Source: Treponema sp.
GTDB taxonomy: Bacteria > Spirochaetota > Spirochaetia > Treponematales > Treponemataceae
Assembly (NCBI GenBank): GCA_024697295.1
Contig: JAILFZ010000017.1
Coordinates: 1 to 33,288 of the forward strand
Reading direction: 5' to 3'
DNA: 33,288 nt
The notes under the pieces were generated by a model. The model saw only the letters and a program-made list of their open reading frames with translations, did no database searches and had not been told where the DNA came from. Made by a program: the position numbers and the translations under genes. Positions within the stretch are counted from its first letter, which is position 1; the number at the start of each line of letters is the position of its first letter. This document shows, piece by piece, positions 7,086 through 33,154 of this stretch.

Positions 7086-7736
7086 ATGAAAACCCGTAAA
7101 AATTCAATTCAATTATATTCAATTTTTTGTGCTTTAAGCATTTTGTCATTGTTGAACTTGTCTTCGTGCGTGACAGTCCGCGTGCAGACAATCGAACCGA
7201 TGGAAGAGGAAGAAGAAGTATCTCAGAAAGTGTGTTCGCGCAATCTGACAGACGAAGGCGTCAAAAAACAGGCCGAACTTGTACAGTTCTTTTTGTCAGA
7301 AAATCCTGAAATTTCAATCGACAAAATCAACCGTCTTGCAGGCTTTTACATTGACGAGGCATCTTCTGAAGGAATCAACAGCGACTGTGCTTTTGTGCAG
7401 ATGTGTCTTGAAACTGGCTTTTTAACATTCGGTAACCTTGTAACAGTCGGAATGAATAATTTTTGCGGGCTTGGTGCAATGGATGCGGGGCATCCGGGAG
7501 AGTGTTTTGCGACAGAACAGCTTGGCGTAAGGGCCCATGTTCAGCATTTGCACGCCTACGCCACTGACAGTACCGTAAAATTGAACCGGGAACTTGTTGA
7601 CCCGCGCTACAGCTGGGTCCACAAGGCTAAGTCTGCTAAAACCGTTCAGGAACTTGCCGGGCAGTGGGCAATGGATGCTTCATACGGCGACAAACTTGAT
7701 GCGCTTCTGACCCGGCTCGACAATTTTACACTATAG
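7086..7736 (+). CDS. Glucosaminidase-domain (peptidoglycan hydrolase) lipoprotein
   Basis: Lipobox-like LLNLSSC after start MKTRKNS (7086); glucosaminidase signature SSEGINSDCAFVQMCLETGFLTFG...NNFCGLG. Confidence 0.8.
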   Translation: MKTRKNSIQLYSIFCALSILSLLNLSSCVTVRVQTIEPMEEEEEVSQKVCSRNLTDEGVKKQAELVQFFLSENPEISIDKINRLAGFYIDEASSEGINSDCAFVQMCLETGFLTFGNLVTVGMNNFCGLGAMDAGHPGECFATEQLGVRAHVQHLHAYATDSTVKLNRELVDPRYSWVHKAKSAKTVQELAGQWAMDASYGDKLDALLTRLDNFTL

Positions 7737-7760
7737 TTCAAATGTCGGGGTTCCTTAAAA

Positions 7761-7939
7761 AAATGCCGGTAATATGTACACTTCCAGGAAAGCGCGTCTG
7801 TCTTCGCATAATTGAAGGTAATAGGTATCCGACTGCGCTCGCTTTGGCTCGCTTGCGATCCTTCAAAATGCTGCAGCAGCCGCTTGCTTTCCTTCCCGTT
7901 TCCATATCGTGTCTTTCTGTTTAAGTAAACCCGGCATTT
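7761..7939. repeat. Palindromic intergenic element, copy 1: 124-nt core 7784-7907 inside terminal inverted repeats
   Basis: The core matches the reverse complement of 32986-33109 with 7 substitutions and no indels. Terminal arms aaatgccgg (7761-7769) and ccggcattt (7931-7939). Inner arms aggaaagc (7786-7793) with gctttcct (7886-7893), and ttgaagg (7812-7818) with ccttcaa (7860-7866). Confidence 0.9.
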
Positions 7940-7970
7940 GTTCGATTTAGTTATTTTGATGGGAAAAGTT

Positions 7971-8113
7971 CGGGTTTTTCGTTTAGCAGAAGGTGCAAAT
8001 CTGCCGTAAGCGAGGTTACAACACAAACTCGCCTGAGCTTCGCTCACTGCGATGTTTGTTGCTTGTGTTCTCGCTGAGAGGCAGATTTGTATTGGGATAA
8101 TGTGAAAAACCCG
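7971..8113. repeat. Long imperfect hairpin element with terminal inverted repeats cgggtttttc / gaaaaacccg
   Basis: Nested arms: 7971-7980/8104-8113; aaatctgcc 7997-8005 / ggcagattt 8080-8088; gcgag 8010-8014 / ctcgc 8070-8074; aacacaa 8020-8026 / ttgtgtt 8063-8069; tcgc 8029-8032 / gcga 8049-8052; tgagc 8034-8038 / gctca 8042-8046. Confidence 0.85.
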
Positions 8114-8118
8114 GAATT

Positions 8119-8814
8119 TTACTTTATAGTTGTTCCGATGTATGAACGGCCTTCGAGTATTGCCTTGATGTTTTCGAGGTTTTTGCCGCCTGCGCAGATT
8201 ACTGTAAGTTTGAGTTCCTGTGCCTTTTTGCTTGCAATCGGGTCAAAAGGACAGTTTTTGCCCGGAACCCATTCATCTCCGACGAGCTTTCTAAAATCAG
8301 CCCACGAAATGTCATCGAGAGGCTTTGCGTCAGGATTTTTGCGCGGGTCGTCTGTGTAAACCTTTTCGATATTGCTCAGGTTAACAACAGTGTCGGCGCC
8401 AAACTTTTCTGCAAGCAGCACGGCATCGTTGTCTGTAGAAAAGCCCGGTTTCCAGCCTGCTGCCACAAGAACAGAGCCTGTAAAATCTTTTGCCTGTGTC
8501 GGGTCTGTTACAACTGCTTCCTTACAGAGTGAACCAAAACTTGCCTTTACAAACTGTGCGTTCAGGCGTGTTGCCATGATACCGATCCAGTCGGCTGCTT
8601 CTGTTTCTGCATCCGGAGCAACTTCTGCAACAGTTCTGAAAGCGTTCTGGTAAATGCGTGCAGGACCGCCGCCGCCGATTACAAAAATAAGTTTGTCACC
8701 CTTGTGTGAATCAAGATAATCTTTTACGAGTTTTACAAATTTAGAAACAAATTCCGTGTCAGGAAATTCCGGGGCAACGATTGAGCCTCCGACCGACAAA
8801 ACTTTAGTAGACAT
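8119..8814 (-). CDS. pyrH: UMP kinase, archaeal/spirochaete type
   Basis: Amino-acid kinase fold: VLSVGGSIVAPEF, FVIGGGGPARIY, GWKPGFSTDNDAVLLAEKFGADTVVNLSNIEKVYTDDPRKNPDAKPL. Confidence 0.85.
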   Translation of the reverse strand: MSTKVLSVGGSIVAPEFPDTEFVSKFVKLVKDYLDSHKGDKLIFVIGGGGPARIYQNAFRTVAEVAPDAETEAADWIGIMATRLNAQFVKASFGSLCKEAVVTDPTQAKDFTGSVLVAAGWKPGFSTDNDAVLLAEKFGADTVVNLSNIEKVYTDDPRKNPDAKPLDDISWADFRKLVGDEWVPGKNCPFDPIASKKAQELKLTVICAGGKNLENIKAILEGRSYIGTTIK

Positions 8815-32077: not shown

Positions 32078-32947
32078 ATGAATCTGTACATTTTTTCTAC
32101 CGTTCTTGCAGGATTCCTCTGGGGAATCATTTCTGTCTTTCTCAAGAACCTTGTTAACTCCGGATTTGCTTCAATGCAGGTGCTTGCCGTGCGGAGCGTT
32201 CTGTCGGCTGTTTTTATGCTGATTTTTTTGTTTTTTAAAAACAGAAGGCTCTTAAAAATTGAACTGCGCGATTTGTGGATGTTTGTCGGAACGGGCGTAA
32301 TCAGCCTGACCTTTTTTTCCGTCTGCTATTTTCACACGATTATTGAAAGCGGGGCAGGAGTTGCCGTAATTCTTCTGTATACTTCGCCGGTCTTTGTGCT
32401 TTTACTGTCGGCTCTTCTTTTTAGAGAAAAAATTACAAAGTTCAAGATAATTGCCCTTGTATTGACCTTTACAGGCTGTATCTTTGTGAGCGGGGCGGGA
32501 GGAGAGAATCACCTGAGCCTCAGGGGCTTTTTAATCGGACTTTGTGCAGGACTCGGCTACGCGCTTTATTCAATTTTCAGCAGGTTTGCGCTTAAAAAAT
32601 ATGATTCGCTCACAGTAACTTTTTATACATTTCTGTTTTCTTCGCTTTCTGCAGTTCCGCTTTCAAACCTGGCTGGCATTACCCCATTGTTGAATTCAAC
32701 TACCGTCCTTTTATCCTGTGGAATCGCCCTTGTCTGTACTGTCCTTCCTTACATTTTTTACACCTTTGGACTTACGGGACTTGAAAACTCAAAGGCCGCA
32801 ATCTTTGTCACTGTTGAACCTCTGGTGGGTACCCTCGCCGGCATTTTTTTGTGGCATGAGGAAATCACGCTTTTTAAAGCCTGCGGTATCCTTTTTATAT
32901 TCACCGCACTTCTTTTCAATCAGAAAGATTCGAAAAATACCGATTAA
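32078..32947 (+). CDS. EamA/DMT-family transporter
   Basis: About 10 hydrophobic segments in two homologous halves; LLYTSPVFVLLLSALLFREKIT and AIFVTVEPLVGTLAGIFLWHEEIT EamA motifs. Start ATG at 32078 preferred over TTG at 32069. Confidence 0.9.
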   Translation: MNLYIFSTVLAGFLWGIISVFLKNLVNSGFASMQVLAVRSVLSAVFMLIFLFFKNRRLLKIELRDLWMFVGTGVISLTFFSVCYFHTIIESGAGVAVILLYTSPVFVLLLSALLFREKITKFKIIALVLTFTGCIFVSGAGGENHLSLRGFLIGLCAGLGYALYSIFSRFALKKYDSLTVTFYTFLFSSLSAVPLSNLAGITPLLNSTTVLLSCGIALVCTVLPYIFYTFGLTGLENSKAAIFVTVEPLVGTLAGIFLWHEEITLFKACGILFIFTALLFNQKDSKNTD

Positions 32948-32954
32948 ACCTGAA

Positions 32955-33154
32955 AAATATCGGGTTATTTGTAAAAACAGGCCAAATATGGAAACGGGAA
33001 GGAAAGCGAGCGGCTGCCGCAGCATTTTGAAGGTTCGCAAGCGAGCCATAGCGAGCGCAGTCGGATTCCTATTACCTTCAATCATGCGAGGACAGACGCG
33101 CTTTCCTGGTAGTTTCCATGGTTCTGTATTTTTATTTATAAAAACCCGATATTT
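32955..33154. repeat. Palindromic intergenic element, copy 2 (inverted relative to copy 1): core 32986-33109 inside terminal inverted repeats
   Basis: Perfect 12-nt arms aaatatcgggtt (32955-32966) / aacccgatattt (33143-33154). Second arms atggaaac-ggga-aggaaagcg (32988-33008) / cgctttcct-ggta-gtttccat (33099-33119). Core matches the reverse complement of 7784-7907. Confidence 0.92.

Follow-up and report, generated by a model that had tools for sequence, protein, structure and literature searches.

What is a block of intergenic DNA that occurs twice, in opposite orientations, on a single Treponema contig? The window considered here is the whole 33,288-nt stretch of contig JAILFZ010000017.1 that was analysed, and the evidence gathered from it and from related genomes favors one answer at a probability of about 0.8: the core repeat is the center of palindromic, non-autonomous transposons (MITEs, about 200–260 bp) that together form a superfamily specific to Treponema. 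In outline, the terminal inverted repeats would be the substrate of a transposase supplied in trans, and insertion between genes would duplicate target bases; in several sister species that transposase most probably belongs to the ISAs1 family. The interior would fold into a single long hairpin whose apical motif (the putative recognition site) is invariant and whose arms vary freely and are nearly always Watson-Crick paired. The core would have stayed the same through several swaps of its ends, and effects on neighboring genes, for example two-way termination, would be secondary. MITEs as such are ordinary; this one is in all likelihood a new form, clearly marked and confined to one lineage, in which a long-lived hairpin core is combined with interchangeable ends.

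Two copies of a palindromic element

Alignment of positions 7784-7907 with the reverse complement of 32986-33109 gives 124 aligned bases, 7 substitutions and no indels, exactly as the first-pass annotation had it, and inverted repeat I1 recovers the same repeat independently (175 nt, 83%). The stop codons that the annotation placed just before each copy are also there: TAG ends at 7736 and TAA at 32947, and both elements begin at most 10 nt away. Its account of the flanks as largely diverged holds only in part. The flanks do differ between copies, but they are not unrelated DNA: left and right flank pair within each copy. The unit is therefore a 200-bp palindrome, and not the 124-nt core alone. 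The features are as follows.

7736..7739, no strand: GTTC direct repeat immediately flanking copy 1, left unit; its G doubles as the final base of the TAG stop codon upstream
7740..7939, + strand: element A copy 1, a probable 200-bp palindromic MITE; arms AAATGTCGGGG...CCCGGCATTT; end-to-end fold, −60.7 kcal/mol
7784..7907, + strand: conserved core of copy 1, within the bounds drawn by the first-pass annotation
7815..7863, + strand: apical motif region of copy 1, consisting of GGTAATAGGTATCCGACTGCG, a variable hairpin tip and CTTGCGATCC; the family hardly varies here
7940..7943, no strand: GTTC direct repeat immediately flanking copy 1, right unit
7965..8119, + strand: element 2, a different hairpin element adjoining copy 1; similar end sequence, AAAGTTCGGGTTT ... 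AAACCCGGAATTT; fold z-score −9.2
32955..33154, − strand: element A copy 2, a probable 200-bp palindromic MITE, inverted; arms AAATATCGGGTTT...AACCCGATATTT; −69.5 kcal/mol; 139.5 bits with covariance model R1
32986..33109, − strand: conserved core of copy 2

The terminal inverted repeats are AAATGTCGGG/CCCGGCATTT in copy 1 and AAATATCGGG/CCCGATATTT in copy 2, and ends of the window type read AAATRTCGGG. Model R1 scores copy 1 at 150.1 bits over 7769-7908. Element 2, which is unrelated to element A, adjoins it at three loci (L001, L002 and L008); it has eight copies in its own genome and is missing at the orthologous site (L087) of a close relative, G098.

Copy number and distribution

A search of the host genome returns eight full-length copies and several fragments, well beyond the two in the window, which excludes chance as the source of the repeat. 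Together with relatives in some 20 other genomes of the Treponema lineage, these copies bear out the annotation's suggestion of a dispersed, multicopy, non-coding element. Across 296 Spirochaetota genomes, model R1 identifies the family in at least 15 genomes from within the genus and at least one from a sister genus, and in none outside these two among the candidates scored; ten candidates per genome were scored under strict filters, so both counts and absences are lower bounds. Fuller R1 scans find 52 matches in T. zioleckii and 40 in G244, a complete genome of the same genus, and copy number varies between 1 and 52 among related genomes.

A degenerate 21-mer from the apical motif matches 30 stretches in the one-genome-per-species GTDB collection, all of them spirochaete: T. 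zioleckii kT3, and MAGs of Treponema and of Spirochaetales/Spirochaetaceae. The same 21-mer has no match in the viral contigs of IMG/VR, and the phage and plasmid collections searched contain no match to the element. Rfam returns no catalogued family (no gathering-level match; one chance-level microRNA match, E 0.41). A review of prokaryotic MITEs mentions no spirochaete (PMC10969869), and the literature searched contains no description of this Treponema family. The element is a new, lineage-specific Treponema MITE superfamily. It occurs widely among Treponema of the rumen and their relatives and comes with a named candidate transposase family, which makes the proposal directly testable.

Evidence for mobility

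Mobility is supported twice: by empty sites in relatives of the host, and by target duplications in G244. Five of the eight own copies (L003, L004, L005, L006 and L008) lie at sites that are empty at the orthologous position in close relatives G098 and/or G099. AACTATTARTT (about 11 bp) is present twice at the filled L005 site and once at the empty one; the empty L006 site reads ...TTATTGAACAAAAAAAACGGG. At the window-type ends the duplications are less clear-cut: six of the eight own copies have GTTC or GAAC, its complement, directly at both ends, copy 2 has neither, and longer duplications vary. (At the site orthologous to L005 in G099, L294, the left flank is the same but the core is inverted.)

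The G244 genome carries a very recently amplified form of the family, in which the core mostly sits inside a 257-bp unit (range 253–258 bp) with ends CAGGGMTTACGCATGA, or CAGGG[CA]TTACGCATGA when written with ambiguity. Nine insertions are identical, and 14 of 21 are flanked by exact 9–10 bp target duplications. A second subfamily, in T. zioleckii, has ends CAGGGATTCCGCATTAT and provides one 10-bp duplication, ATAAATAAGG.

Type II bacterial MITEs are intergenic elements of 50–500 bp with terminal inverted repeats, target duplications and stable hairpins, moved in trans by an insertion sequence (IS) that shares only their ends (PMC10969869). The Treponema element resembles them in size (200 bp in the window, 253–258 bp in G244, with no transposase gene), terminal inverted repeats, intergenic sites and a stable hairpin, and in its sister-species form also in target duplications and, probably, in being moved by an IS with which it has only the ends in common. 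It differs in its interior, which is conserved across many species, contains an invariant apical motif, and lies between several unrelated ends.

Nested insertions also were observed. Two loci in G244, L279 (G244:C1:504517-504951, 435 bp) and L280 (G244:C1:2084728-2085121, 394 bp), hold nested MITEs, with a further long hairpin inside the core. A third hairpin (CTTCGCARCACAGYTGCT..CGGAGAATCGCT..ACGCTCCCTA) is inserted within core copies in three genomes (L010, L035, L048 and L052).

Candidate transposases

Elements of the ISAs1 family have CAGGG ends and produce target duplications of 8–10 bp, a size that fits the 9–10 bp duplications of the MITE. An intact 1,169-bp IS of this family is present in G375, from a sister genus; its 367-aa transposase scores 326.7 bits on NF033564 (transpos_ISAs1), and its ends, CAGGGCTTCAGCATGA / CAGGGCTTACGCATGA, are the same 16-mers that bound the MITE in G211 and G244. 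These identical ends and the duplication size make ISAs1 the probable mover of the G244/G211 form; judged from sequence, ISAs1 transposases probably move the sister-species form in trans. The likeness stops at the ends: the MITE is without a transposase gene, its interior is unrelated to the IS, and the window copies are without these ends.

Carrier genomes were searched for ISAs1 with profile PF13808. The host genome, a MAG of 1.93 Mb in 205 contigs and 83% complete, in which IS copies assemble badly, has no PF13808 match, and the window ends are not those of the ISAs1 IS. Nor did a search of it for Y1 and ISAs1 transposases turn up an autonomous partner with window-type ends. In T. zioleckii, 84 matches to the window-type end motif include no inverted pair 1–3 kb apart that would mark an autonomous element, and in G244 there is no ISAs1 element with ends matching its MITE.

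Several other candidates were rejected. The ISAs1-like transposase that G244 itself encodes (392 aa, four near-identical copies) belongs to an element with ends CACGGAAATCAA, not CAGGG; single-occurrence matches to the MITE ends in G244 bound no visible transposon; and the end motif is not a separate high-copy repeat in the host genome, most solo copies being chance matches in genes or ordinary terminators (for example, C36:29099-29133 and C87:3139). The second ISAs1-like IS, with the 392-aa transposase, is found at L264, L269, L271 and L272 in G244, and also at L266 and L267.

A palindromic, dispersed, intergenic repeat also brings to mind REP/REPIN-type elements, which are moved by a RAYT (Y1) transposase. 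This identity is hardly tenable. PF01797 (Y1_Tnp) is undetected in the host genome (G000), in T. zioleckii (G028) and in the closest relatives (G098 and G099), and this missing transposase contradicts it. Moreover, elements of 200–260 bp with terminal inverted repeats and target duplications are not tagged palindromes of 20–40 bp. Integron attC sites likewise are an unlikely identity, given dispersed single copies beside ordinary genes.

Hairpin fold and base-pair signature

Conservation of the fold is evident across 77 copies, in which 92.5% of helix cells are paired, compared with 64.6% after shuffling and 30–44% with the partner slid; double-sided changes occupy 825 cells compared with 255. 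Both comparisons are inflated by an alignment fitted to the structure. An earlier, sequence-only alignment of 28 copies showed compensatory changes in 29 of 38 predicted pairs. Outside the model, 38 copies have C-G and 34 have G-C at loop pair X-Y, none has a contrary standard pair, and the pair adjoins an invariant A/G mismatch in the apical loop. The stems vary freely; in the apical loop, GTAA..GG.AT..GACTGCG and TTGC.A scarcely change, with columns that reach 95% conservation or more in the 77 copies. A purely selfish spacer would not be expected to carry a motif so conserved, and in this respect the motif counts against the MITE reading.

Very strong covariation around an invariant internal-loop motif is what a conserved structured RNA, a regulator or small RNA transcribed from one strand, would display. 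The kinds of pairs present argue otherwise. Only 20 of 2,598 helix cells (0.8%) are G-T, fewer than the 53 that are A-C mismatches, with the three least reliable pairs left out and counts that ignore kinship; selection on a one-strand RNA predicts the reverse. For comparison, G-T accounts for 16 of 296 in 14 tRNAs from the same loci (the zero count of A-C there is uninformative, since ARAGORN favors standard pairs). Because a one-strand RNA would tolerate G-U, we infer from this rarity that the fold is maintained in the DNA itself or is needed on both strands. With no match in Rfam, a placement relative to genes that is not constant, and a copy number that varies so widely between related genomes, a structured RNA is very improbable.

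Two general points emerge. Strong covariation is not enough by itself to class a repeat as a non-coding RNA; and where a hairpin covaries strongly, scarce G-T can serve to separate DNA-level or two-strand hairpins from one-strand RNAs.

Genomic context and transcription termination

Could the element be mainly a two-way intrinsic transcription terminator, spread or co-opted? The outer stem often has an A-run before it and a T-run after it, as in AAAAAATGCG...CGCATTTTTT; both window copies begin within 10 nt of a stop codon; and strand symmetry would also account for the scarcity of G-T pairs. However, the neighboring genes, classified with an ORF heuristic, have no fixed arrangement: 22 divergent, 18 convergent and 24 tandem. 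Divergent neighbors thus are as frequent as convergent ones, so many copies do not lie at gene ends, and the enrichment just after gene 3' ends that marks the SPRITE element of pneumococcus does not appear. Moreover, termination does not need an invariant apical motif, and a terminator scan of 7600-8250, allowing loops of 3–8 only, finds none. Two-way termination by the A/T runs may occur without explaining either placement or apical motif, and as the main function of the element it is unlikely.

The comparison with pneumococcus extends beyond termination. SPRITE, RUP and BOX of Streptococcus pneumoniae are dispersed hairpin repeats that cluster and insert into one another, and the SPRITE arms have terminator-like A/T runs (PMC3049150). 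Dispersed hairpins, A/T-run arms (as in SPRITE), clustering and nesting also characterize the Treponema element. It belongs to another lineage, however, with no sign of sequence relation; it has a conserved apical loop motif; and a linked IS family has been identified for its sister-species form.

Beside one core copy in T. zioleckii (L046), a long run of tandem 63-base repeats, apparently coding, occupies positions 500-1200.

Exchange of ends around the core

To return to the MITE reading, four end types surround the same core: AAATGTCGAG, CAGGGNTT, CAGGGCAASCGCACCGGAAA and TGTYGKAGAGAAGTGCA. End type changes at least seven times on the core tree, where three changes would be the minimum; the tree has few columns and many open forks, and its end labels were assigned by eye. 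The outer ends have changed from species to species, and the core outlives these swaps.

A bolder, and distinctly tentative, proposal is that the apical hairpin (GTAAKWGGWATC[C/G]GACTGCG, tip, TTGC[G/C]AWC) may be a recognition module in its own right, to which a Treponema protein would bind in the form of a cruciform or folded DNA strand, and which would last over long periods through capture between the ends of successive unrelated transposons. If so, the thing conserved would be the hairpin, rather than any single transposon.

Two sets of copies stand somewhat apart. Those in G170 (L129, L144, L200 and L209) have the fourth end type, TGTYGKAGAGAAGTGCA, without a clear target duplication. 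In copies without recognized transposon ends (L133, L162, L169 and L131), the outermost arms differ from one copy to another, but within a copy they pair without a mismatch over as many as 18 bp.
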